A DNA stretch of 64,000 nt from Chryseobacterium sp. (GTDB lineage: Bacteria; Bacteroidota; Bacteroidia; Flavobacteriales; Weeksellaceae). The notes below the pieces were generated by a model, which worked only from the letters and a program-made list of their open reading frames with translations, made no database searches and was not told the DNA's origin. The position numbers and the translations under genes were made by a program. Below are positions 3,058 to 63,732 of this stretch, piece by piece. The stretch lies in contig NZ_JARBTK010000009.1 in NCBI RefSeq assembly GCF_029240215.1, forward strand, positions 1 to 64,000. Direction: 5' to 3'. The first letter of the stretch is position 1. Every line of letters starts with the position of its first letter.

Positions 3058-3663
3058 ATGAAATATTATCTTCTCTTTATTTTTCTAATCATAGCAAATT
3101 TTTCATTTTCACAAAATGTTCTTAAAGTCACAAACACTTACGGAAGTGAAAACGAAGAGATTCAAAATTTGTTAGACTTTGAGAATATTTATATTGAACA
3201 ACTCAATTTTGAAAGCGAAAAATTAAAGGGGAAATATTATGTTATAAACTTGGAAGAATTTAGCAATGGAAAACTTGTGAAAACTTCAACATTATTTGAT
3301 GGTTCAGAATCCGATTATTTTAAAATAGACTCAGAAAAAGAAATAGTGAAATTTTTCTTCAAATTAAGTGATAGAAAATTGAAAACTTATATAAGAGGAC
3401 AAAAGTTTGGGAGCAAAAAATCATATTTCAACTTAAGCAGTGATTCTGATCAATATGCGCTTAAAGATTTTTTTGGAAATAAGAAGGAACTTAAAATAGA
3501 TTTAACCAAGGAAAATGCAATATTTGCGATTATTACGCCAACAATTCATAAAGATGGTTCAGGTTCTTACTGCGAGGTTGCTCAATCTGAGGTTATGCCT
3601 CAGAAACTTGGTGAGCATTTTAGAATTCCGCATTACTTTTTGATTACCATTAAATTTAAGTAA
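3058..3663 (+). CDS. hypothetical secreted protein
   Basis: This 201-residue protein begins with a clear signal peptide (MKYYLLFIFLIIANFSFSQ, cleavage likely after residue 18 or 19), so it should reach the periplasm or beyond. The mature part is charged, rich in Lys, Glu and Phe, contains a single Cys near the C terminus (SYCEVAQ) and looks like a mixed alpha/beta domain. I recognise no family and no catalytic motif. It starts with ATG and opens a co-directional run with the EamA transporter and the PorV-type gene, with 42 bp to the next start. Confidence 0.7.
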   Translation: MKYYLLFIFLIIANFSFSQNVLKVTNTYGSENEEIQNLLDFENIYIEQLNFESEKLKGKYYVINLEEFSNGKLVKTSTLFDGSESDYFKIDSEKEIVKFFFKLSDRKLKTYIRGQKFGSKKSYFNLSSDSDQYALKDFFGNKKELKIDLTKENAIFAIITPTIHKDGSGSYCEVAQSEVMPQKLGEHFRIPHYFLITIKFK

Positions 3664-3705
3664 AAGCACAAATAATAAATTTTTAAAGTTTTAATTAATA
3701 TTAAA

Positions 3706-4584
3706 ATGCAAAAACTAGCACTTTTCAGATTGCACCTGATTGTTTTTTTGTGGGGATTTACTGCAATTTTGGGTAAACTTATTACCGCAAACGCACACAT
3801 TTTGGTTTTTTACCGAATGTTGTTTGCTGCGATATTTCTTTTTGTGTTCATCAGAGTTTTTAAAAAGGAAAGTATTAAAGTTTCCAAAAAGCTTTTTTTA
3901 CAGCTTTCTGCCATAGGATTTTTCATGGCGTTACATTGGTTATGCTTTTTTTATTCTATTAAAGTTTCGAATGTTTCAATTGCTTTGAGCTGCCTTTCTT
4001 TGTCTACATTGTTTGCAGCCATTTTAGAACCTCTCGTTTTTAAAAGGAAAGTAGATGTTTCAGAAGTGGTCATGGGAGTTGTGATTGTTGCATGTATTCT
4101 TCTTATTTTTAAAACAGAGTTTCAGTATAAAGAAGGTATTTTCTTTGGTATTCTTTGTGCAGTTTTTGGGACTATCTTTTCTGTTTTCAACGGAAAACTA
4201 TTTGGTAAAACCAGTCCAGGAAATATTATTTTTTACGAAATCTTCAGTGGTTGGCTTATTTTGGCTGTATTTTATTTATTATCTGGTCAAATATTTTCAA
4301 TGAATGAAATAAATTACCGAGATTTGGCGTTAATATGCTTGTTGGCAAGTGTTTTCACTGCGTTTCCAATGCTTGAATCGGTAAAGTTGATGAAATATAT
4401 TTCGCCTTTTACACTAATTTTAACAGTAAATTTAGAACCAGTCTACGGAATTATACTAGCTTTTTTTATCTTTGGAGAATCAGAACATATGAGTCAGGTA
4501 TTTTATGTGGCATCATTGGTTATGATTTTGGCAATTGTAGCAAATGCTCTGATAAAAACTAGGAAACAAAAAACAATTAACTAA
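3706..4584 (+). CDS. EamA/DMT-superfamily transporter
   Basis: This 292-residue protein has about ten hydrophobic helices arranged as two homologous EamA repeats (roughly residues 7-136 and 147-285). The first opens with LHLIVFLWGFTAILGKLI, the second with GIFFGILCAVFGTIFSVFNGKLFG. Length and topology are typical of drug/metabolite exporters, which usually move amino acids or small metabolites across the inner membrane. The substrate cannot be read from the sequence. The basic C terminus (KTRKQK) is probably cytoplasmic. Only 12 bp separate its stop from the PorV-family gene, so the two are probably co-transcribed. Confidence 0.88.
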   Translation: MQKLALFRLHLIVFLWGFTAILGKLITANAHILVFYRMLFAAIFLFVFIRVFKKESIKVSKKLFLQLSAIGFFMALHWLCFFYSIKVSNVSIALSCLSLSTLFAAILEPLVFKRKVDVSEVVMGVVIVACILLIFKTEFQYKEGIFFGILCAVFGTIFSVFNGKLFGKTSPGNIIFYEIFSGWLILAVFYLLSGQIFSMNEINYRDLALICLLASVFTAFPMLESVKLMKYISPFTLILTVNLEPVYGIILAFFIFGESEHMSQVFYVASLVMILAIVANALIKTRKQKTIN

Positions 4585-4596
4585 GCATCAATTTGC

Positions 4597-5679
4597 ATGA
4601 TGAAAAAATATCTTTTATTATTATTTTCCCTCTTATTCGGGTTTTCTCAATCACAGATTATCAGAAAATATTCCAATGAATTTTTAAATATTGGAGCCGG
4701 GGCAAGAGGTTTGGCTATGGGTGGAGCTGTGATCTCCAATCAGGACGATGTTTACTCGCCAATGTGGAATCCGGCTGGTCTGAACGGAATTAAAAAAGAC
4801 TGGCAAGGAGCAGCAATGCACGCAGAATATTTTGAATCTATTGCAAAGTACGATTATCTTGCCTACGCAAAAGTTTTGGAAGAAGGCGTTTTCGGAGTTT
4901 CAATTGTAAGACTGGGCGTTGATAATATTTTGAATACCACTCAGTTGATCGATACGGAAGGAAATATTGATTACGATAAAATTACAAAATTCTCACAGTC
5001 AGATTATGCGGGAATTATTTCTTACGCATTCAGTCCAGGGGGAAATCCAAAGCTGGATGTCGGTATTAACGCTAAAATTGTTTACAGAAATGTAGGGAAA
5101 TTTGCAAGTGGTTATGGTTTTGGTTTTGATGTTGGTGCAATTTATAAAGCAGATAACGGCTGGAAATTCGGGGGAATACTCCGTGATGCAACAACTACAG
5201 TGAATTTCTGGAGTATTAATCAAAACGAATTGTCGGCAGTGGTCAACGGTGAAGAATTCAACCCTGCACCAACCGATAAAATGGAACTGACGATGCCGAA
5301 GTTGAATGCGGGTGCAAGTAAATTATTTGAAATCAACAGTAGTTTATATGTTTTACCCGAAGCGGGAATTAATGTGGATTTTGCTAAAACAGCAGCTCTT
5401 CTCTCCACAGATTTTGCCAGTATTACTCCATATGCAGGTGCTGAATTGGGTTATCAGAAAATGATTTTTGTGAGATTAGGAGTCAATAGATTCCAGTCGA
5501 TTACTGATATTGAAGATTTAAGCAGAAAAGTTTCCTTCCAGCCGAGCGCAGGTTTAGGAATCAGATACAGAGGTCTGACTCTTGATTATGCAATCAGTAA
5601 CTCAGGAATCGGCGGATCAAATTTCTTCTCAAATTTTTTCTCTCTGAAACTGGATATGGGTGAATTTAGGAATGATTAA
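4597..5679 (+). CDS. PorV/PorQ-family outer membrane protein (PorV2-like)
   Basis: The 360-residue protein has a signal peptide (residues 1-19) and the family opening FLNIGAGARGLAMGGA (28-43) followed by SPMWNPAGL (53-61), the hallmark of FadL-like beta-barrels related to T9SS protein PorV. The remainder alternates polar and hydrophobic residues as expected of barrel strands. True PorV is a shuttle of the type IX secretion system; this shorter relative is usually called PorV2 and its exact role is less clear. It lies between a transporter and a secreted unknown, 12 and 30 bp away. The family is secure, T9SS participation is inferred. Confidence 0.85.
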   Translation: MMKKYLLLLFSLLFGFSQSQIIRKYSNEFLNIGAGARGLAMGGAVISNQDDVYSPMWNPAGLNGIKKDWQGAAMHAEYFESIAKYDYLAYAKVLEEGVFGVSIVRLGVDNILNTTQLIDTEGNIDYDKITKFSQSDYAGIISYAFSPGGNPKLDVGINAKIVYRNVGKFASGYGFGFDVGAIYKADNGWKFGGILRDATTTVNFWSINQNELSAVVNGEEFNPAPTDKMELTMPKLNAGASKLFEINSSLYVLPEAGINVDFAKTAALLSTDFASITPYAGAELGYQKMIFVRLGVNRFQSITDIEDLSRKVSFQPSAGLGIRYRGLTLDYAISNSGIGGSNFFSNFFSLKLDMGEFRND

Positions 5680-5709
5680 AAAATTAAGATTATTTTAAAA
5701 TTAATTACA

Positions 5710-6465
5710 ATGAAGAAACTTTCAACAATAATAGCAGCTCTTTGCATTACGTTTTCGTATGCGCAAAAGGTTTCCGATTATCAATATATTGCACTTCCAG
5801 AGAAATTTAGCGGATTTAAAAACGATCAATACAAAATGGATGTATTGCTTTCTAAAACATTGAAACAAAAACAGTATGTAGTTGTTTCAGGAAACAGAAG
5901 TCAATGGACGGCGGAAGCCAATTCAAATCCATGCAGCGTTTTGAATGCAGATGTAATCAACGACAGTGGTTTTTTGAGAAATAAGGTTGTTTTGGAATTT
6001 AAAGATTGCAACGGTAAAGTAATTGCAAGCCAAAAAGCGAGCACTTCGATTAAAGAATTTGAGGAAGGTTTTCAGGATGCTTTAAGACAGGCGTTGGTAA
6101 CGGTTCCGGTTTCAAGTCCGAAAGAAATTCAGATGCAAGTGGCTGGTCAGGAAGCACAATCTTCAGAACCTGTAAGAGAAGCTCCACGTCAAAATGTAGA
6201 TAATTCTTCAAATCAATCGGGAAAATATACGAATGGAAAAGTAAGTTTGCAAAAAGTTCAGATTGACGATAGTCAGTTTATTTTGGTTGAAAGTAATAGT
6301 TCTGTACCATTTGCAACTTTTAAATCGACAAGTAAAAAAGATACCTTCAAAGTAAAATTAAATTCAGGAGAATCAACCATCGGATATTATGAAAACGGAA
6401 ACATCGTGATTGAGATGCCAAAAGGCAATGATGATTATTCAAAAGAAGTTTTCATTTTAAAATAA
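5710..6465 (+). CDS. hypothetical secreted protein downstream of the PorV-type gene
   Basis: This 251-residue protein carries a signal peptide (MKKLSTIIAALCITFSYAQ, cut after about residue 18). Residues 20-135 form one probable domain with two Cys that could pair (CSVLN near 77 and DCNGK near 100). A Gln/Ser/Asn-rich linker (about 140-175) leads to a second small domain ending in many Lys/Glu. I recognise no family. It is 30 bp behind the PorV-type gene and closes that run of genes, ahead of a hairpin terminator shared with the convergent fasciclin gene. Confidence 0.7.
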   Translation: MKKLSTIIAALCITFSYAQKVSDYQYIALPEKFSGFKNDQYKMDVLLSKTLKQKQYVVVSGNRSQWTAEANSNPCSVLNADVINDSGFLRNKVVLEFKDCNGKVIASQKASTSIKEFEEGFQDALRQALVTVPVSSPKEIQMQVAGQEAQSSEPVREAPRQNVDNSSNQSGKYTNGKVSLQKVQIDDSQFILVESNSSVPFATFKSTSKKDTFKVKLNSGESTIGYYENGNIVIEMPKGNDDYSKEVFILK

Positions 6466-6471
6466 ATAAAA

Positions 6472-6500
6472 AAGCCTTATCTGTCATCCAGATAAGGCTT
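6472..6500 (-). terminator. terminator between convergent genes
   Basis: A perfect 12-bp stem (6472-6483 with 6489-6500) has a 5-nt loop. The T-rich tail is on the minus strand, serving the fasciclin gene; the hairpin may also end plus-strand transcripts from the PorV-type run. Confidence 0.85.
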
Positions 6501-6528
6501 CCTTAAAATAAACCATAAAAAACTAAAA

Positions 6529-7098
6529 CTATGGTAATAGAACAGTATCTATTACATGTATAACACCATTTGACTGATTGACATCAGCGATTGTCACTTT
6601 TGCTTTGCTACCTTTTGCGTCAGTTACATACAAATCGTTTCCTTTTGTCCAAAAAGTAAGCTGTTCTCCTTCTACTGTCTTCATCATTGCTTTTCCATTT
6701 CCTGCTTTTACTGCTGCCCAAACTTGCTTAGCACTGTATTTACCAGGAAGAACGTGATACGTTAAAATCTTTGTAAGCATTTCTTTATTTTCAGGCTTTA
6801 CCAAATTTTCAACTGTTCCTGCAGGTAATTTTGCGAAAGCTGCATCCGTTGGAGCAAATACTGTAAAAGGTCCTTTGCTTTGTAAAGTTTCCACCAAACC
6901 TGCTGCTTTTACTGCTGCAACCAATGTTGTATGATCTTTAGAATTTACTGCATTTTCTACAATATTTTTAGAAGGATACATTGGTGCTCCACCAACCATT
7001 ACCGTCTTTTCTTTCATTTTCTGAGCAGCTGCATTTCCACTTAATGCAAATGATAAAGCGACCATTCCTAAAACTGCAAATTTTGATCTTGTGTACAT
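6529..7098 (-). CDS. fasciclin (FAS1) domain protein, secreted
   Basis: This 189-residue protein has a signal peptide (residues 1-25, ending SGNAAAQ) and one FAS1 domain from about residue 50 to the end. The conserved boxes are visible: [14 protein letters not shown] (H1), [12 protein letters not shown], and [17 protein letters not shown] (H2). FAS1 proteins are exported adhesion or surface proteins. Next to it are a secreted MsrB and a divergent ECF sigma/anti-sigma pair, which resembles the mycobacterial SigK-RskA locus where the sigma factor drives fasciclin genes. The upstream region has a CGTAAAT box that could be an ECF promoter. Family call firm, regulation inferred. Confidence 0.9.
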
Positions 7099-7155
7099 TT
7101 TTTTGATTTTTTAAATTATTATTATTTGATTTTTCTAAATTTTGTTCTTGCTTTT

Positions 7156-7184
7156 ATTTACGACAGTAACATGATTTCAGTTTT
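7156..7184 (-). promoter_or_regulatory. possible ECF-sigma promoter of the fasciclin gene
   Basis: On the minus strand AAAAC (7180-7184) is followed after 17 nt by CGTAAAT (7156-7162), resembling the AAC/CGT layout of ECF promoters. The msrB upstream region carries a related pair (AAATC, 17 nt, CGTATAT). The motif is short and AT-rich, so chance is possible. Confidence 0.3.
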
Positions 7185-7233
7185 ACGTTTTTCAAATATT
7201 TATTTTATTTAATTGAAAATCAATGTATTAAAT

Positions 7234-7758
7234 TTATTTCTTTTTCTTTTGATTAGGAACAAACTCTAAAGAAACCGAATTCATACAGAATCTTTTTCCT
7301 GTAGGTTTTGGTCCGTCATCAAAAATATGTCCCAAATGAGAATCACATCTTCCGCAAAGCACTTCGGTACGCTCCATATTGTGAGAGTTATCCTTTTTAT
7401 ATTTTACACCATCTTTTCTCAAGGGTTCATAAAAAGAAGGCCATCCACAAGTTGTAGCAAATTTTGATGTTGACAGAAATAACGCATTACCGCAAACTGC
7501 ACAGTAATAAGTTCCCTTTATATCAAATTCATAATATTTCCCTGTAAAGGCCATTTCGGTGGCTCCTTCTCTTGCAACTTGATAGAGTTCTGGTTTCAGA
7601 ATTTTCTTCCATTCTGCATTGCTTACTTTTAAGGGAGCTGTGTTTGTTTTGGAGTAATAAGGATTTTTCGCCTTAAAATTTTCTGACTGTGCTGAAATAT
7701 TTCCGAAAATCAAAATCAGGAAAAACGCGGAAAATATTTTCGTAATCGTATTTTTCAT
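7234..7758 (-). CDS. msrB: peptide-methionine (R)-S-oxide reductase, exported
   Basis: This enzyme reduces the R epimer of methionine sulfoxide in oxidised proteins. The 174-residue protein has a signal peptide (residues 1-23, ending ISAQ), so it acts in the periplasm. The MsrB fold is complete: zinc-binding CAVC (C86, C89) and CGRC (C135, C138), CGWPSF (104-109), DSHLGHIFDDGP (139-150), and the catalytic cysteine C158 in RFCMNSVSL. C104 is a possible resolving cysteine. It shares a short divergent region with the ECF sigma factor gene, suggesting joint control in envelope oxidative stress. The Lys-rich C terminus (KKKK) is slightly unusual. Confidence 0.95.
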   Translation of the reverse strand: MKNTITKIFSAFFLILIFGNISAQSENFKAKNPYYSKTNTAPLKVSNAEWKKILKPELYQVAREGATEMAFTGKYYEFDIKGTYYCAVCGNALFLSTSKFATTCGWPSFYEPLRKDGVKYKKDNSHNMERTEVLCGRCDSHLGHIFDDGPKPTGKRFCMNSVSLEFVPNQKKKK

Positions 7759-7794
7759 TTTTAATTAAATTTTATAATGATTGTTTATGAATAT

Positions 7795-7823
7795 ATATAC
7801 GAGATAAATTTTTTGAAAGATTT
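7795..7823 (-). promoter_or_regulatory. possible ECF-sigma promoter of msrB
   Basis: On the minus strand AAATC (7819-7823), 17 nt and CGTATAT (7795-7801) mirror the spacing seen upstream of the fasciclin gene. This is a weak signal in AT-rich DNA. Confidence 0.25.
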
Positions 7824-7852
7824 TTTCTGTTGTTCATTTTATTTTATTAGAT

Positions 7853-8419
7853 TTGATATGTAAAATATTCAATATTAAAACAAACTATTCGGAAGACGAA
7901 CTTATTGCTTTGCTCAGACAAAAGAGCGAATCAGGTTTCCACCACTTATATGACCATTATTCAGGGGCATTATATGGGGTGATTCTTCGGATCGTACAGT
8001 CAAAAGAATATACTGAAGAAATTATTCAGGATGTTTTTATGAAAATCTGGAATTCTATTCACCAGTATGATGCTGCAAAAGGAAGATTTTACACTTGGAT
8101 GATCAATATTGCCAGAAACACAGCAATCGATTATTTAAAATCAAAAAGTTTTCAGAACGAATTAAAAAACCAATCATTACCTGATTTCGTATATAACAAT
8201 GCGGAACTTTCAACCACCAATAATTCAGATTTTATTGGATTTAATAACGTGCTTGAAACTTTAGAATCTGATAAGCAGGAGCTCATAGATCTTGCTTATT
8301 ATCAGGGCTATACGCAGAGTGAGATATCAGAAAAACTGAACATGCCTTTGGGTACTGTAAAAACGAAAATGCGAAATGCATTGATGAAATTAAAAGATTT
8401 ATTAAAAGATTATCAATAA
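7853..8419 (+). CDS. ECF RNA polymerase sigma factor (SigK-like context)
   Basis: This sigma-70-family factor of the ECF type has 188 residues and only regions 2 and 4. Region 2 is seen in YTEEIIQDVFMKIW and YDAAKGRFYTWMINIARN (about 53-88), and region 4 in YQGYTQSEISEKLNMPLGTVKTKMRNAL (about 149-176), the helix-turn-helix for the -35 box. No in-frame ATG precedes the conserved core; the plausible start is TTG at 7853, since the ATG at 7858 is out of frame. The anti-sigma gene begins 2 bp after its stop, so they are translationally coupled. It probably controls the divergent msrB and fasciclin genes, which is inferred. Confidence 0.92.
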   Translation: MICKIFNIKTNYSEDELIALLRQKSESGFHHLYDHYSGALYGVILRIVQSKEYTEEIIQDVFMKIWNSIHQYDAAKGRFYTWMINIARNTAIDYLKSKSFQNELKNQSLPDFVYNNAELSTTNNSDFIGFNNVLETLESDKQELIDLAYYQGYTQSEISEKLNMPLGTVKTKMRNALMKLKDLLKDYQ

Positions 8420-8421
8420 AA

Positions 8422-9252
8422 TTGAATAGTAAAGAGTACATATCATCCGGAATTCTAGAATCATACATTCTAGGTCATGCTTCTCCCGAGGAAGCAGGTA
8501 TTCTGGAGTGTGTAATGAAGAATAATGCTGAAGTAAGAGAAGCTTTTGAGGAAGCACAAAAAACTTTTGAGATGCTTGCTACTGCGCAGGCTGTGACCCC
8601 ACCCAACGATTTGAAATCTAAAATCTGGGATAAAATTCAACAACAGGAAAAAGTTGAATCAGATATTGAAAAACCGGTTATACCTATACAAACCAGTGTT
8701 CAACAAAGCGAAATAACAACTACAGCTCAGGATATTAAAACTGAGAAAAACGGCAGTTGGAAAAACTTTGCAATTGCTGCTTCTTTACTGTTTTTAGTAA
8801 GTATAGGTGCTAATCTGTATTGGATGAACAGCCAGGCTGAGATCAATGAGAAAATGGTAAAACTGGAAAGTGAGGCTCAATCTAAAAATGTTGCAATGCA
8901 GAATATGCAGCAGAAATTAGATATTGTTGCTAATCCCGATATGAAAAAAATTGTCTTAGCCGGCGTTGACAAACATCCGCAATCTAAAGCAACGGTTCTA
9001 TGGGATACCAGCTCTAAAGATGTTTATCTGAATGTAAACAGTCTTCCGAAGGCACCCGAAGGAATGCAGTATCAATTATGGGCAATTGCAGACGGAAAAC
9101 CTGTAAGCGCAGGAATGTATTCTGAAGATAAGGACGGAAGAATTGCATTATCAAATATTCCAGATGCGCAGGCATTTGCTATCACACTTGAGAAAAAAGG
9201 AGGAAGTGAAGTTCCGACTATGGAAAATATGTACGTAATGGGAGGAGTTTAA
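8422..9252 (+). CDS. RskA-type membrane anti-sigma factor
   Basis: The 276-residue protein has a cytoplasmic N-terminal part (1-110) that would hold the sigma factor, one transmembrane helix (114-134, NFAIAASLLFLVSIGANLYW) and a periplasmic RskA domain (about 165-276) with LPKAPEGMQYQLWAIADGKPVSAG. A coiled-coil-like stretch lies between helix and domain. RskA proteins release their sigma factor after intramembrane proteolysis. The start is TTG at 8422, 2 bp after the sigma stop codon. Its partner is clearly the adjacent ECF sigma factor; the inducing signal is unknown, and MsrB next door makes oxidation a reasonable guess. Confidence 0.9.
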   Translation: MNSKEYISSGILESYILGHASPEEAGILECVMKNNAEVREAFEEAQKTFEMLATAQAVTPPNDLKSKIWDKIQQQEKVESDIEKPVIPIQTSVQQSEITTTAQDIKTEKNGSWKNFAIAASLLFLVSIGANLYWMNSQAEINEKMVKLESEAQSKNVAMQNMQQKLDIVANPDMKKIVLAGVDKHPQSKATVLWDTSSKDVYLNVNSLPKAPEGMQYQLWAIADGKPVSAGMYSEDKDGRIALSNIPDAQAFAITLEKKGGSEVPTMENMYVMGGV

Positions 9253-57818: not shown

Positions 57819-58697
57819 ATGAAAATGCATATTCTTACTGCGATTTGTTCACTTATATTTATAGGATGCAATCCGAAAACTGAAAATACTCAAGTAAAAG
57901 AAGATTCTTTGAAAACAGAATTTTCTCTGCCCAAAAAGCTGAAAGAAGTTTCAGGAATTGCACTTTCGCAGGATCAGAAAACGATTTGGGCAATCGAAGA
58001 TGCCGGAAATAAAAATGTAGTTTACGGATTAAACCGACAAGGAGAATTGACTACCGATGTTTTGGTGGAAAACTCCGAAAATAACGATTGGGAAGATATT
58101 ACCAAAGACGCAGCCGGAAATATCTATATCGGAGATTTTGGAAATAATGAAAATGACAGACAGAATCTTTCTATCTTAAAATTAGATTTGAAAACTGATT
58201 CTCAGAAGTCAACAAAGGTTATTCAGACTACGAAATTTCATTACGAAGGGCAGACTGAATTTCCTCCAAAAAAATCAAATTTACTGTACGATTGCGAAGC
58301 ATTTGTTGAAAAAGACGGTAACTTTTATTTGTTCACAAAAAACAGAAGCAAAGGTTTTGATGGAACTTTTTTAGTTTTCCAAATTCCAAATAAAGAAGGT
58401 AATTTTGAAGCGAAATTGGTAGGTAAATTGAAATTGGAAGGCGGTTACACTGATGCTGCAATTACTTCAGCTACCATCAATTCTAAAAATCAGATTGTGC
58501 TTCTAAATCATAAAAATATCAATGTACTTTCCGGATTTACAGCGAATGATTTTAGTTCAGCCAAAGTTCAGAAAATACCTTTAAATCATAATTCGCAAAA
58601 AGAAGCCATTGTTTTTATTGATGATAAAACGTTGTTGATTGCCGATGAAAAGGATAAGAAAACAGGTGGGAATGTTTATCAGTTTTCTTTAAAATAA
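57819..58697 (+). CDS. lipoprotein with propeller-like repeats
   Basis: This 292-residue lipoprotein has a lipobox IGC (Cys17). The sequence shows repeated blades such as EVSGIALSQDQKTIWAIEDAGNKNVVYGL, WEDITKDAAGNIYIGDFGNNENDRQNLSILKLDL and YTDAAITSATINSKNQIVLLNHKNINVLSGF, the pattern of SdiA-regulated/NHL-type beta-propellers. No catalytic residues can be named. It is probably attached to the membrane facing the periplasm. It is convergent with the large phosphoesterase gene and a palindromic element lies between them. Confidence 0.72.
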   Translation: MKMHILTAICSLIFIGCNPKTENTQVKEDSLKTEFSLPKKLKEVSGIALSQDQKTIWAIEDAGNKNVVYGLNRQGELTTDVLVENSENNDWEDITKDAAGNIYIGDFGNNENDRQNLSILKLDLKTDSQKSTKVIQTTKFHYEGQTEFPPKKSNLLYDCEAFVEKDGNFYLFTKNRSKGFDGTFLVFQIPNKEGNFEAKLVGKLKLEGGYTDAAITSATINSKNQIVLLNHKNINVLSGFTANDFSSAKVQKIPLNHNSQKEAIVFIDDKTLLIADEKDKKTGGNVYQFSLK

Positions 58698-58819: not shown

Positions 58820-61800
58820 TTAAAAACTCAATCCCACACCACCGGAAATCCTTCCGCCATCTTCACCGATAAAATAATCGACTCTCGCAGAGAACGTTTC
58901 CAGAATATTCATCCAGAAACCTGCACCAACTCCTTGATGCCATTTGTCAGACTGTTCACCATCTTTCCAGACTCTTCCCAAATCATAACCGACTAAAATT
59001 CCCATATTGGTCGGAACAATATTGTTTTTTACTCTTCCAAAATCCCATCGGATTTCAGAATTGTTGGCGAAATATGATTTCCCGGCAAATCTTTCATTTC
59101 TGTAGGCACGCATTCCGTTGTTTCCGCCGATGGCTGCAGCCTGATAAAATTCAAAATTGTTATTGTTGATGATCATTGCGTTGCTCGAGTTGGCAAACAC
59201 AAATTTTCCTCTTTTATCGATTCTGTGGAAGACATTTAAGGTTCCATTGAAATTGGCGAAGTTTTGATTGAATTCCGAAATATTCGCCTTCCAACCTGCA
59301 TTTAAAATCAGTTCTAAACCTAAAGTAGGGAAAGCTTTATTATCTAAATTTTTAAAACTAAACGTATAGTTCGCTCCCGCAAATTGTTGTCCGTTGAAAA
59401 CTTCTGGGTTCACATCCGGAGAAACAGCTACAAAACGGTCATCATTAACCTCTACTTTAGCATGTTCAAAATTCAACTGAAACTGATGCTTCAGATTCAG
59501 CCAGCTTGTTTTTGAGATGGAAGGTGCAAATTTAAATTGAGAAATACGCACTCTGTTGTAGTCTCTGTTGTCTTCATCAGCATCATTCAAACTTTCATTA
59601 CCTAAACCAAAGAACGTTCTTGCAAAAAACGGAGTGGTATAAGTTGCATCAATTCCCGCATCCCAACCAGCGATTGCTTTTTTGAAAATTCCTTTGTAAC
59701 CAACATTAAATCCGCCGGTTGCGGTGTAAAAATTAGCGCTTAAACTATGCTTTTGGGTAAAAGGATCACGGATGAAATTATTGACAGTGTAATTAGCAAC
59801 AATTCCTAAAATCACTCCGTCATCAGGATTGAAATTCGCCATTGGATATCCTGCGAAGAAATTGTATTTCGGATGCTTCCAGTTGTAGGTATTAACATCG
59901 TAATCGTCGGTGATATGTTTGGTTGCAGATTTCGCATTGTAGGTGTTTTTTGAAGATTTAAAATCGTAAATTTTCACCTTCCTTCCATTTTCTACATTAT
60001 ATATATCATGATTATAACCACCAATTAATCGGATGTTGATTTTTGATTTTCCTTCTCCTGAAACTTCGTAAATATCATCTTCTTCCAAACCGTAGATCCA
60101 AAGTTCCTTAGTTTTGTCATCTTCGTATTTCTTTTCAAAAACCAATTTTTCACCTTTGTTTTTGTCTAATTGATATTGTTTTACTTCGACAGAATTTCCT
60201 GTCTTAGTAATCACGAATTTATCTTTGTTAACGGTTCCAGTCAATGGAATTTTTTCCTGCAAAACATCAAAGTATTTGGTTGCATAATCTTCCAGTTTGC
60301 CTTTTCTCAGCTTCAGTTTTCTCTGAATGTCTGTAATCGTTTCATCCTGAACTTCTTTAGGTAAATTATCAAAGGCGCGGTCAATATCGTTATCTGATAA
60401 ATGTTCCTGAATGTATTTTGCCTGATTCGTCCAGTCTTCCTGATTTGCGTTTTTTAAGAAGATTAAATCCATAGGATAAGGCTCCATATTCATCCAACGC
60501 ACGCTTTTAATATCATCTTTAAATGTTTTCATGTGACGGATTGCAGGAATATTCATTAAAACTTTAAAAGCTGCACCATCGTAGTTGCTGAAAGCCTGAT
60601 CTCTGTCACGAGGAATCGGTTTATAAATCACTTTGTCACCTATTTTATACTCAGCCCATTTCCATTGATCTTCGTGTCTGTCCCAATCGCCGATCAGCAT
60701 GTCAAAAATTCTTGCTCTGATGTAAAGATCCTGATCTACTGAATATTTACCGTCTTTTCGCATATTTTTCAGAACATCTGAAGTTGAAACAATGTCTGAA
60801 GCATTATCCAATGACTGTAAAGTTTTAGGATCAGAAGAAAAGCGTTCTTCAATCATATACAGTTCGTCGCCGTAGTTTTGATTGTATCTTCCTAATGATT
60901 TTTGTTTCGGAATGTAATACAATTCAGGATTGCTGTGGAAAATCCCAAGTTTATCAATCATATTGTTGACAGCAAATCCTGTAAACGGATGATTGGTTGT
61001 ATAGAAATCCAGTAAAAACCTTTCTGGAAAAGTATTGTTGAGTTCGCTTCCGAAACTGTTTTTCTTAAAAGCCTGTGCATTCAAGAAACGGACTGCACTT
61101 TTCTTGATTCCCCGCATCACAAATTCCTGTCCGTCATTGGTTCTCAAACGAAGACTGTTCGACTGGTTTCCGCCACCTTCTCTGACAGGAGAATATCCGG
61201 GATTCATGTCTGAAAGATTTTTTGTTTTGGCTTCTATCGGAAGTGCATAATATTTTCTGTAATGATTTCCCCAAAGCCAAGTATAGAATTTTCCTGCTTT
61301 AGTCTGTCTTTCGGAATAAATCGTAGATGTTACGGTTGCTGGTAAAGCATCGGGATAATTATTTTGAAACTCTTCTGGTTTTTTAAGGACTGCAATCTGT
61401 GTTAGTTTCTCAAGTTTATTATTTTTGGTCGAAAAATATTCAACATCTGAACTTAAATCTTTTCTGAGATTTAAAACAGCAAATCCACTCCCGCCTGAAG
61501 AGAAGTCCGTTTTTTTAACAATCGTTGCCGGATCTGTTTTAGAACCCGCACCGCTGATGATTTGCTTAATATTTTTGTTTTCGTGATATTGTAGATTGTG
61601 ATCATGACCAGAAACCAAAATCACATTTTCTTTATCCTGAATAATACTTTTGATTCTATTGGCAAATTCTGCATAATGTGCATTGCTAATATCTTCCATA
61701 CTCGCACCGGAAGAGCTTCTCAAAACATTGATCAGACTCGCAACTCCGGGAACAGGAAGTTTTCCCTGAAATGATGAAAGGTGAGATTTAGCCGAATTAA

Positions 61801-62533
61801 AACCTGCATGAACACCCGAGCTGATGACGGGATGATGCAAAGCAACAATGATTCTTTTGTCCTGATTTTTTGTAATTAAATCTTTAAACTCGGCATAAAA
61901 ATCTGCTGTCGTCTTGATTTCGCAGCCTTTATTGATTCCTGGATATTTGTCCCAATTGATAAGAGCCCATTCAGAATCAAGAACAATCAGTTTGATGTCT
62001 TTGGTTAAATTAATATCGTCAATCGGACAAGAATTTTTAGGTAAAAAAGATTTTTTGTCGTTTAAATATGATTTTACAAATTCTTCCTGAGCTTTTAAGC
62101 CTTCCAAACCGTGATACCAATCGTGATTTCCGGGAATAACCAACGTTTTCCCCTTGAAATTTTTGGTTATGGCTAATTGGTTTTCCAGTTTTTGTTTGGC
62201 TAAAGGATAACCTTTGTCACTTTCTTTTGGCATTCCCAGCGGATAAATATTGTCTCCCAAAAACAGAAGCATGGAGTTTTTATCAGCAGAATCCAGTTTA
62301 TTTTTAATGAAATCTAAAGTATGCTGTGCTTGCGGCTCATCTGCATTTCCGGCATCCCCAACAAGGAAAATTTTAAAATCATTTTCAGTTTTTGCATCAG
62401 AATTTTGTATTTCATGCAAGTTTTTTCCTTTTTGTACGTTATAGGTTGCACAAGAAAACAGAAATCCTGAAAGAAGGACAGTTCTCACAATTGCCGAGAA
62501 TATTTTTCGATCAAATTTAAAGGATAAATTCAT
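58820..62533 (-). CDS. 1237-residue lipoprotein: metallophosphatase, kinase-like segment, Omp85-type barrel
   Basis: A lipobox LFSC gives Cys28. Residues 53-360 are a calcineurin-like phosphatase with GDAGN (59-63), GDN (93-95), GNHD (135-138), HHP (233-235) and GHDH (309-312). Residues about 455-655 look kinase-like: a strand with FVMRGIKK (471-478), then FDMLIGDWDRHEDQWKW (610-626) and PRDRDQAF (641-648), arranged like the catalytic loop and metal-binding Asp of HipA, FAM20 and PI4-kinases. From about residue 885 it is a beta-barrel with MRAY (1141-1144) at the Omp85 L6 position and a terminal Phe. Phosphatase and barrel are solid; the kinase reading is inferred. Confidence 0.82.
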   Translation of the reverse strand: MNLSFKFDRKIFSAIVRTVLLSGFLFSCATYNVQKGKNLHEIQNSDAKTENDFKIFLVGDAGNADEPQAQHTLDFIKNKLDSADKNSMLLFLGDNIYPLGMPKESDKGYPLAKQKLENQLAITKNFKGKTLVIPGNHDWYHGLEGLKAQEEFVKSYLNDKKSFLPKNSCPIDDINLTKDIKLIVLDSEWALINWDKYPGINKGCEIKTTADFYAEFKDLITKNQDKRIIVALHHPVISSGVHAGFNSAKSHLSSFQGKLPVPGVASLINVLRSSSGASMEDISNAHYAEFANRIKSIIQDKENVILVSGHDHNLQYHENKNIKQIISGAGSKTDPATIVKKTDFSSGGSGFAVLNLRKDLSSDVEYFSTKNNKLEKLTQIAVLKKPEEFQNNYPDALPATVTSTIYSERQTKAGKFYTWLWGNHYRKYYALPIEAKTKNLSDMNPGYSPVREGGGNQSNSLRLRTNDGQEFVMRGIKKSAVRFLNAQAFKKNSFGSELNNTFPERFLLDFYTTNHPFTGFAVNNMIDKLGIFHSNPELYYIPKQKSLGRYNQNYGDELYMIEERFSSDPKTLQSLDNASDIVSTSDVLKNMRKDGKYSVDQDLYIRARIFDMLIGDWDRHEDQWKWAEYKIGDKVIYKPIPRDRDQAFSNYDGAAFKVLMNIPAIRHMKTFKDDIKSVRWMNMEPYPMDLIFLKNANQEDWTNQAKYIQEHLSDNDIDRAFDNLPKEVQDETITDIQRKLKLRKGKLEDYATKYFDVLQEKIPLTGTVNKDKFVITKTGNSVEVKQYQLDKNKGEKLVFEKKYEDDKTKELWIYGLEEDDIYEVSGEGKSKINIRLIGGYNHDIYNVENGRKVKIYDFKSSKNTYNAKSATKHITDDYDVNTYNWKHPKYNFFAGYPMANFNPDDGVILGIVANYTVNNFIRDPFTQKHSLSANFYTATGGFNVGYKGIFKKAIAGWDAGIDATYTTPFFARTFFGLGNESLNDADEDNRDYNRVRISQFKFAPSISKTSWLNLKHQFQLNFEHAKVEVNDDRFVAVSPDVNPEVFNGQQFAGANYTFSFKNLDNKAFPTLGLELILNAGWKANISEFNQNFANFNGTLNVFHRIDKRGKFVFANSSNAMIINNNNFEFYQAAAIGGNNGMRAYRNERFAGKSYFANNSEIRWDFGRVKNNIVPTNMGILVGYDLGRVWKDGEQSDKWHQGVGAGFWMNILETFSARVDYFIGEDGGRISGGVGLSF

Positions 62534-62559: not shown

Positions 62560-63732
62560 ATGAACGTTTTAAACAAAGCCAAAGATTATGTTGAAAACTT
62601 ATTCAAAGATAAGTTATCTTCTGTATATTTTTACCATAATTTTATTCATACTACCTACGCTGTCAATAAGGCTGAAGAGATCATCAGTCATTCTGAAGTT
62701 TCTGAGGCAGACAGAGAAAAAGTCTTGCTGGCTCTTTGGTTTCATGATGTGGGTTTTACCGATTGTAATGCAGAAGGTCATGAGAAAAAAGGAGTGGAAA
62801 TTGTTACAGAATTTCTCTTACATGAGAATGCTTCAAAAGAATATATTGATGAGGTTGCAAAATTGATCCTTTCGACAGAAAAATATCATCAGCCACAAAA
62901 CTTTCTTGAGCAAATCATGAAAGATGCAGATTTCAGTCATTTTGCAAGTCCGTTTTACAATGATTCTGCGGAAGCTTTGCGAAAAGAGTGGGAACTGACT
63001 GGCGGAATGTGCTTTTCTAATGATGAATGGAACGTGATGAATGTAGATTTTCTGAAAAACAAGCATAAATATTTTACAGACTACGCTAAAGAAAATTGGG
63101 AGCCGCTAAAAATGAAGAATGTAAAAAAGCTTGAAAAAAAGCTTGACAAAGAAGAAAAACCAAAGAAAGAAAATTCAGATTCTAAAAAAGATAAAGAGCA
63201 AAAATCTGACAGAAGTGTAGATACCCTTTTCAGAGTTACCTTAAATAATCATACAAGATTGAGTGATATTGCTGACAGCAAAGCCAATATTTTGCTTTCG
63301 GTGAATGCGATTATCATTTCGGTTTGTCTTTCTGTTTTGGTTCCGAAATTAGATACTCCGAAAAATGCACATTTGATTATTCCTACATTTTTCCTGTTGA
63401 TATCAAGTGTGATGACGATCATTTTTGCCATTCTTTCTACAAAACCGAATGTGACAAAAACTACATTTACCAATCAGGATATTGAAGACCGGAAAGTGAA
63501 TCTTTTATTCTTTGGGAATTTTCATCAGATGAAGTTTGATCATTACTTGAGTTCGATGCACGATCTCATCAAAGACAGAGATTATATTTACGATTCTATG
63601 GTGAAAGATTTATATTTTTTAGGGAAAGTTCTAGACAGAAAATACAAGCTCCTTTCAGTAACATACCAGATTTTTATGGCAGGAATTATTATTTCTGTAC
63701 TTTCTTTTGCGTATGCTTTTCTTAGTTTGTAG
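62560..63732 (+). CDS. HD phosphohydrolase fused to a Pycsar-type (PycTM) membrane effector domain
   Basis: The 390-residue protein has an N-terminal HD domain (about 5-175) with His30, His62-Asp63 (LWFHDVGFTD) and Asp122/124 (KDADFSHF), the metal-binding set. A Lys/Glu linker (186-217) joins a C-terminal domain (about 219-390): DTLFRVTLNNHTRLSDIADSKANILLSVNAII, membrane helices at about 244-264, 272-293 and 370-389. This matches the Pycsar effector PycTM, which depolarises membranes in response to cyclic CMP/UMP. No cyclase is in the window. It is divergent from the large phosphoesterase by 26 bp and overlaps the next gene by 11 bp at its 3' end. Confidence 0.85.
   Translation: MNVLNKAKDYVENLFKDKLSSVYFYHNFIHTTYAVNKAEEIISHSEVSEADREKVLLALWFHDVGFTDCNAEGHEKKGVEIVTEFLLHENASKEYIDEVAKLILSTEKYHQPQNFLEQIMKDADFSHFASPFYNDSAEALRKEWELTGGMCFSNDEWNVMNVDFLKNKHKYFTDYAKENWEPLKMKNVKKLEKKLDKEEKPKKENSDSKKDKEQKSDRSVDTLFRVTLNNHTRLSDIADSKANILLSVNAIIISVCLSVLVPKLDTPKNAHLIIPTFFLLISSVMTIIFAILSTKPNVTKTTFTNQDIEDRKVNLLFFGNFHQMKFDHYLSSMHDLIKDRDYIYDSMVKDLYFLGKVLDRKYKLLSVTYQIFMAGIIISVLSFAYAFLSL

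Follow-up and report, generated by a model that had tools for sequence, protein, structure and literature searches.

A predicted outer-membrane lipoprotein of Chryseobacterium that joins a purple acid phosphatase-type domain, a kinase-like domain and an Omp85-type barrel

Results

One gene encodes a phosphatase, a kinase-like domain and a barrel

We analyzed a stretch of 64,000 nucleotides from Chryseobacterium sp. (contig NZ_JARBTK010000009.1, positions 1 to 64,000; hereafter the window) and focused on one gene. This gene (58820..62533, minus strand) is one uninterrupted frame with an ATG start and encodes 1237 amino acids (aa). From the N-terminus, the product comprises a lipoprotein signal, a phosphatase of the purple acid phosphatase type, a kinase-like domain, an all-beta domain and an Omp85-type barrel. 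The original prediction, made from the letters of the window, claimed that a phosphatase, a kinase-like segment and an outer-membrane barrel are joined in one polypeptide, and that the kinase-like segment carries GDWDRHEDQW followed 20 residues later by PRDRDQAF. Both motifs were found in one frame with the phosphatase and the barrel (residues 615-624 and 641-648). Their order was as claimed; the spacing is 16 residues rather than 20.

The predicted lipoprotein signal peptide covers residues 1-28 (62450..62533, minus strand), with the lipobox LFSC and Cys28. By inspection of the sequence, there is no acidic residue at positions +2 to +6 after Cys28. From the barrel and the lipobox together, we infer that the product is a lipoprotein of the outer membrane. 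In a Pfam search of the 1237-aa protein, Metallophos matched residues 54-251 above the cut-off (E 2.1e-9), and no family covered residues 366-830. Pfam, NCBIfam and phmmer by themselves gave no identity for the middle domain. The genome from which the window comes possesses a single copy of the middle segment (residues 430-770).

The Metallophos match bears out the claim of an N-terminal calcineurin-like phosphatase. The domain (residues 50-365; 61439..62386, minus strand) possesses the motifs GD60, GD94xxY97, GNH137, HH233-234 and GHDH 309-312. We counted the metal-binding residues in 135 phosphatase domains: H233 and H234 are kept in 135, H310 in 132, D94 in 129, H312 in 128, D60 and N136 in 127, H137 in 125 and Y97 in 124. 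When a 28-row profile of the domain was compared with PDB, it matched human purple acid phosphatase (1war, E 2e-15) and TRAP5 (2.1e-15). The motif set and the profile match place the domain in the purple acid phosphatase/TRAP type. It shares with TRAP (ACP5) the GDxxY, GNHD, HHP and GHDHNLQY motifs. TRAP is a stand-alone secreted enzyme, whereas the phosphatase here shares its chain with the kinase-like domain and the barrel. Locus L171 was left out of the 135 domains by length; its phosphatase matches are split over two frames (4102-7233 and 7423-7815), and the fused gene seems to be interrupted there.

The middle domain has the predicted fold of an atypical kinase

The kinase-like domain covers residues 405-765 (60239..61321, minus strand) and has no Pfam family; it was delimited with an AlphaFold2 model, fold searches and an alignment of relatives. 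A kinase-like fold for residues 440-700 was the preset test of the original prediction. AlphaFold2 and the fold search placed the segment in the CotH/PI4K/HipA class, and only its extent needed revision, to about 405-765. The model of residues 400-885, for which 75 relatives were used as input, has an atypical-kinase fold (predicted local distance difference test, pLDDT, 91.3; predicted template modelling score, pTM, 0.91). In this model, the Gly-rich loop GGGNQ (residues 453-457; 61163..61177, minus strand, as are the following elements) joins the predicted strands 447-452 and 458-465. The next strand carries Arg474 and Lys478 (61100..61102), the candidate beta3 lysine. Asp509 (61007..61009) lies in a predicted helix, which appears from the order of elements to be equivalent to alpha-C. 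The catalytic-loop motif GDWDRHEDQWKW (residues 615-626; 60656..60691), with the DRH sequence, then leads through a strand pair to the metal-binding, DFG-like motif PRDRDQAF (60590..60613). In the predicted structure, the order of the elements is that of a kinase.

Foldseek against PDB gave CtkA (E 3.2e-6), COQ8A (3.7e-4), Rio2 (4.6e-4), HipA (7.8e-4), the FAM20-type matches DrFam20C1 (2.8e-3) and Golgi casein kinase 4kqb (5.9e-3), and the lipopolysaccharide (LPS) kinase WaaP (4.7e-3). When the listed structures were realigned with VIA-align, the Z scores were 15.2 for CotH 5jda (248 residues, 4.0 A), 14.2 for PI4KII-alpha, 13.5 for CtkA and 11.7 for HipA, where rows at most 1 Z apart count as tied and a common fold is no proof of function.

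Remote sequence similarity was measured with profiles. The best PDB match of the profile from alignment A3 (described below) was CtkA (E 0.01), with GNFDRHNGNW under GDWDRHEDQW. This HMMER alignment is ungapped at the catalytic loop, and the Asp of CtkA PIFDCG, which we take to be the metal Asp of CtkA, falls one column before D643. In hhalign, a CotH alignment of 21 rows (P 0.0067, probability 5.7%) paired with just the catalytic and metal segments, its NWD set against DWD and its IPWDNNEAF against IPRDRDQAF, and a HipA alignment of 24 rows placed its DDH loop on DRH (P 0.11, probability 0.5%); four control pairs gave P 0.26-0.67. The hhalign comparison with CotH and HipA is too weak alone and serves for the register, which agrees with the fold. 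The CotH model PF08757 was matched neither by the 1237-aa protein (E up to 10) nor by 24 members of the family (E up to 1), in searches where the HMMER filters discard most weak matches. The HipA_C model PF07804 matched two of the 24 members, below the cut-off (best E 0.16). In a first PDB profile search, HDAC6 was at the top (E 0.19, through a DWD-H stretch); it was not listed when the richer alignment was used, and CtkA led.

CotH (5jda/5jd9) is thus the closest fold, with its motifs in register, and differs by about 10% identity, by the unmatched Pfam model and by having neither phosphatase nor barrel. CtkA from Helicobacter pylori (3akk) and HipA (4pu3) are of the same fold class, and the DRH loop of CtkA is aligned; CtkA possesses Asn at the fifth position after the catalytic Asp (D+5), where the family here has Gln. 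CtkA and HipA are not known to be outer-membrane proteins.

The catalytic residues are conserved in relatives

Alignment A3 contains 90 rows and 322 columns; a degenerate copy (L055:3476) was removed before counting. K478, D611, R619 and G653 are present in all 90 rows, W624 in 89, G454 in 88, G453, R474, E562, Q623 and D645 in 87, and D509, D618, D643 and R644 in 86. Residues D616-H620, Q623, W624 and D643-D645 are retained in 84-90 of the 90 relatives; G615 (68/90), R642 (67/90) and F648 (78/90) are less conserved. The conservation of DRH and DRD among homologues, which the original prediction had taken as decisive, therefore stands. A regular expression for the motif pair, written after the motifs had been seen, matched one of the 68 open reading frames (ORFs) of the window and 16 of 20,000 shuffles of the 1237-aa protein; when all 68 ORFs were shuffled 2,000 times, the same post hoc expression matched 8 times. 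The pair of motifs is thus unlikely to be fortuitous.

The catalytic set, namely the Gly-rich loop, K478, D509, D618 and D643, is apparently complete. The Gly-rich loop, the beta3 Lys and the alpha-C acid occupy the proper places in the predicted secondary structure, and the catalytic and metal-binding Asp are in register with CotH, the catalytic loop also with CtkA. With the kinase fold of the model, these residues give good support for residues 405-765 as an atypical member of the protein-kinase-like (PKL) superfamily.

The C-terminal part is an Omp85-type barrel without a visible POTRA domain

An all-beta domain (residues 766-885; 59879..60238, minus strand) with 11 predicted strands and without the POTRA pattern precedes the barrel (residues 886-1237; 58823..59878, minus strand). 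By sequence, the barrel was matched only below the cut-offs (Pfam ShlB at residues 1079-1206, and NCBIfam Omp85_fam). Its predicted fold has 16 strands and bears out the Omp85 type that had been claimed. The model of residues 760-1237 (pLDDT 87.8, pTM 0.78) shows the 11-strand domain and then 16 long strands, with two extra 3-residue strands in the loop before strand 12; no POTRA domain was seen before the barrel in this model. The barrel matched TamA (Z 27.3), BamA (26.8) and FhaC (24.4), and Foldseek gave BamA with E 2e-12. Between strands 11 and 12 lies the L6-like motif GGNNGMRAYRNERF, in which R1142, R1145 and R1148 are present in all 62 rows (MRAYRNERF in the window; consensus LRGYRNxRF). 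We take this Arg motif to be the L6 signature of Omp85. The 16 predicted strands and the Arg motif place the barrel in the Omp85 superfamily. According to the paper on PlpD (PMC11116518), Omp85 proteins have one or more POTRA domains, whereas Heinz and Lithgow (PMC4104836) set no such requirement.

Kinase plus barrel form the common core, with the phosphatase as an optional partner

The middle segment 430-770 is present in 111 of 296 genomes drawn from the phylum Bacteroidota, and a 24-row profile of the kinase-like domain found relatives in 143 of 395 Bacteroidota genomes. In a contig scan, the best 80 matches all have Bacteroidota names. These 80 named loci (L059-L138) are close relatives and include one from Flavobacterium johnsoniae CI04 (L089). 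Because they supply 80 of the 134 ORFs in which phosphatase, kinase-like domain and barrel are fused, the counts over all loci are not independent. A second set of 60 diverse loci from 22 families contains 24 fused ORFs, 28 with kinase and barrel, 8 with kinase and beta domain and 5 with the kinase-like domain only.

When a simple regular expression for the lipobox was run over all loci, it matched 112/134 fused, 1/29 kinase-barrel, 5/8 kinase-beta and 0/5 kinase-only ORFs; these are undercounts, since a clear CAT lipobox is present in several of the missed ORFs. A hydrophobic segment at the N-terminus was found in 127/134, 23/29, 6/8 and 5/5 ORFs, respectively. The hydrophobic N-termini and lipoboxes indicate that the proteins are as a rule exported or anchored in a membrane, and some misses may be due to wrong starts. 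The 29 kinase-barrel ORFs include a fragment from a Chryseobacterium assembly (L079:6170-7597), where the gene is read as 475 aa and the frame seems to be broken in that record; L079, L117 and a few near-copies were dropped from alignments A2 and A4.

In a midpoint-rooted tree of 87 domains, one half (63 rows, support 100/100, 7 label changes) contains the 46 fused proteins together with 6 kinase-barrel, 6 kinase-beta and 5 kinase-only rows. The other half contains 22 of the 28 kinase-barrel rows and two rows from an operon. Thus, kinase plus barrel is the core common to both large groups of the tree, and the phosphatase an optional partner.

In this operon, kinase, TRAP-like phosphatase and barrel are three adjacent genes on the same strand (L046:2838-6793 and L047:5051-9097, from one genus). 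In L046, the separate genes match Pfam Metallophos and Omp85 above the cut-off, and an MgtE gene lies downstream. When the separate phosphatase of L046 was searched against the genome of the window, the single match was the fused protein (E 3.2e-4). In a search by kinase matches, with the neighbors of the new matches not scanned, the operon did not prove to be widespread: of 98 genomes from the order of genome G251, 16 had a match, and a complete kinase in a frame of 530-579 aa was found in G251 and G055 alone, the remaining matches being longer frames or partial matches.

HD-PycTM and SdiA-regulated genes recur beside the kinase-like gene

A divergent neighbor (62560..63732, plus strand) encodes a 390-aa protein with an HD domain and PycTM. 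The convergent neighbor (57819..58697, plus strand) encodes a 292-aa SdiA-regulated protein by a Pfam match over the cut-off; a phytase-like model matched below the cut-off. Both partners are recurrent. In the 80 named loci, relatives of the HD-PycTM gene occur in 73 and of the SdiA-regulated gene in 65, and relatives of more distant window genes are fewer (MazG 21, DUF5606 17, deformylase 13). In 66 of 79 named loci, the HD gene is divergent from the fused gene and at most 600 bp away. Of the 60 diverse loci, 26 (16 of 22 families) possess an HD relative, which lies within 1 kb in 14 of them, and 13 possess the propeller gene. By class, the HD relative accompanies 18 of 24 fused and 8 of 26 kinase-barrel loci and 0/5 and 0/5 loci of the other classes; these HD counts include matches of about 200 aa without PycTM. 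The recurrence of HD and beta-propeller genes beside the kinase-like gene is an association only. The window, like many other loci, thus pairs an outer-membrane gene with a gene for a PycTM protein of the Pycsar-effector type.

Discussion

The combination of a phosphatase with an Omp85 barrel is already known. Heinz and Lithgow (2014; PMC4104836) defined an Omp85 subfamily 'Metallo' by PF00149, which they called a metalloprotease domain, and listed it among the architectures without POTRA. The 1237-aa protein, with PF00149 and a barrel without a POTRA pattern, conforms to this subfamily. The same paper describes a 'noNterm' subfamily with similar barrels, and the kinase-barrel forms may be among its members; the words kinase and phosphatase do not occur in its main text. 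PlpD, a patatin-Omp85 protein (PMC11116518), resembles the protein here in having an enzyme domain N-terminal to a 16-stranded Omp85 barrel. It differs in having a phospholipase and POTRA, where the protein here has phosphatase, kinase-like and all-beta domains. A type Vd (PlpD-like) assignment does not fit, since the Pfam scan gave no patatin domain and the model no POTRA pattern. TamL and the Flavobacterium johnsoniae BAM complex were considered as identities and rejected: the respective papers lack the words kinase and phosphatase, and TamL has POTRA domains. A Riemerella metallophosphoesterase (Niu et al. 2021), a type IX secretion system (T9SS) effector according to a T9SS review (PMC10202324) and also cited in the reference list of PMC10281475, is a candidate relative only. 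No description of the kinase-like domain was found in the literature searched, most subscription journals being outside its reach. To judge by this literature, the kinase-like domain and its forms without phosphatase appear to be new, and so do the operon of separate genes and the partner genes.

Domain folds, residue conservation, recurrent architectures and gene partners were established by computation. On this basis, we lean slightly toward a bifunctional kinase-phosphatase of the envelope, which would face the periplasm at the outer membrane. The POTRA-less Omp85 barrel and the N-terminal lipid would hold the enzyme in the outer membrane. For the catalytic domains, the periplasmic side is favored by the lipid anchor, by their position N-terminal to an Omp85 barrel and by the location of the enzyme domain of PlpD, the closest enzyme-Omp85 fusion for which there are data. 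There, the kinase domain would use a nucleotide to phosphorylate a substrate on the inner side of the membrane, which would be a protein, a lipid or a glycan and is perhaps presented at the barrel, and the fused TRAP-like phosphatase would take such phosphates off again, so that the two enzymes would act in opposite directions on one substrate.

Several observations weigh against a periplasmic kinase-phosphatase. Sequence likeness to known kinases is weak, as the CtkA and hhalign values above indicate. The D+5 position (623) is Gln in 87 of 90 relatives, Asn in 2 and Lys in 1, where a second metal-binding Asn would be expected, although this Asn is not universal among atypical kinases. Twelve of the 90 A3 rows deviate from the scored ten-residue set: three at E562 alone, two by Asn at 623 alone, one at R644 alone, two by Ser at 618 with Arg at 620 (L044:5847 and L045:7748), and four (L152, L153, L158 and L053) are clearly decayed. 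The phosphatase is not universal, as the 28 kinase-barrel ORFs of the diverse loci lack it, and the phosphatase of the fused family was not found in any of five kinase-barrel genomes searched. In the fused relative L164 (4064-7747), the phosphatase is degenerate with several metal motifs lost and the kinase set is intact. The separate-gene operon was seen in just two genomes of one genus. Finally, the periplasm is generally thought to lack ATP. This donor problem is not unique to the protein here, because the ATP source for spore-coat phosphorylation by CotH has also been called unanswered (PMC7821199).

The Gln at D+5 and the supposed lack of ATP would both suit a pseudokinase or nucleotide sensor, the main rival, in which the domain transfers no phosphate and instead serves to regulate the phosphatase or the barrel, its ligand being a nucleotide, a metabolite or a glycan. 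The decayed motifs of L152, L153, L158, L053 and L055:3476 also speak for it. However, K478, D509, D618, D643 and D645 are all present here and each is kept in 86-90 of the 90 relatives, with clear decay in few rows, and we regard this explanation as unlikely. Another candidate is an envelope kinase for lipid, LPS or small molecules, which would act on an outer-membrane lipid, a lipid A or core sugar or an extracellular metabolite instead of proteins. The lipid kinase PI4KII is tied with CtkA, WaaP is in the Foldseek list, and the barrel would put the domain at a lipid surface. In contrast, CtkA, the best sequence match, is a protein kinase. CotH, the best fold match, is also one (PMC7821199). 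The fold alone does not decide the substrate, and we consider a lipid or LPS kinase rather unlikely.

The remaining alternatives seem less probable still. In surface display, the barrel would serve to translocate the domains N-terminal to it, which would then act on environmental phosphate compounds at the cell surface. Acidic residues at +2 to +6 are the export signal of lipoproteins; the protein here has none, nor do 100 of the 112 fused ORFs whose lipobox was detected. The arrangement of catalytic domains N-terminal to an Omp85 barrel is that of PlpD, for which export was first proposed (type Vd; PMC4104836), but the PlpD domain was later located exclusively in the periplasm (PMC11116518). 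Thus, we judge surface display improbable. That the kinase likeness is superficial and the middle domain an unrelated binding domain would agree with the Pfam searches, in which no kinase family matched above its cut-off. Against this stand a Z score of 15 over about 248 residues and conserved residues at the G-loop, beta3, catalytic-loop and metal-binding places, which make it very improbable indeed.

A wider proposal builds on the periplasmic kinase-phosphatase. An outer-membrane kinase family of Bacteroidota that has gone unrecognized, with its fused phosphatase and the HD-PycTM and beta-propeller genes, might form a system of reversible envelope phosphorylation that uses a non-cytoplasmic donor. 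We offer this tentatively and think it more doubtful than the enzyme activity itself. With a periplasm thought to be without ATP, the outer membrane is not a place where phosphate-adding enzymes would be expected. If the proposal is true, this would be the first case, as far as the literature searched shows, of an outer-membrane protein that unites a kinase and a phosphatase in a single chain. The wide distribution of the family would make regulation of the outer membrane by reversible phosphorylation in diderms, and its donor, testable. The subfamily catalogued in 2014 as metalloproteases would gain a likely chemical identity, and enzymes on Omp85 barrels would extend beyond PlpD.

Additional observations

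The copies at L055:3476, L152, L153, L158 and L053 look like pseudokinases with decayed DRH/DRD motifs. In L055, the motifs are degenerate throughout the copy at 3476-6115, which adjoins an intact copy (6123-8690). A degenerate copy beside an intact one would be expected if the intact copies are catalytic.

A phage origin was considered and rejected: a pattern search of viral_contigs matched 18 stretches, no relative is encoded in them, and matches in BFVD are at the level of fold only. In loci L039-L043, the kinase-like protein stands alone; it is about 425 aa long and has a hydrophobic helix at its N-terminus, a predicted membrane anchor. The genomes of these loci also encode frames of full-length fused size. 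In two genomes of one family (L045:4126-9151 and L044:5433-8778), two or three kinase-beta paralogues without a barrel lie side by side. Frames that by their N-terminal sequence might be polyphosphate kinases lie near a kinase-barrel gene in L054 (422-2512) and L057 (9661-11727). Three genomes of one family possess, within a few kb of the kinase-barrel gene, a CotH gene that is separate from it and encodes about 375 aa (L154:8590-9708, L155:2232-3362 and L157:3099-4229); in a fourth genome of this family (G353), the distance is about 6 kb.

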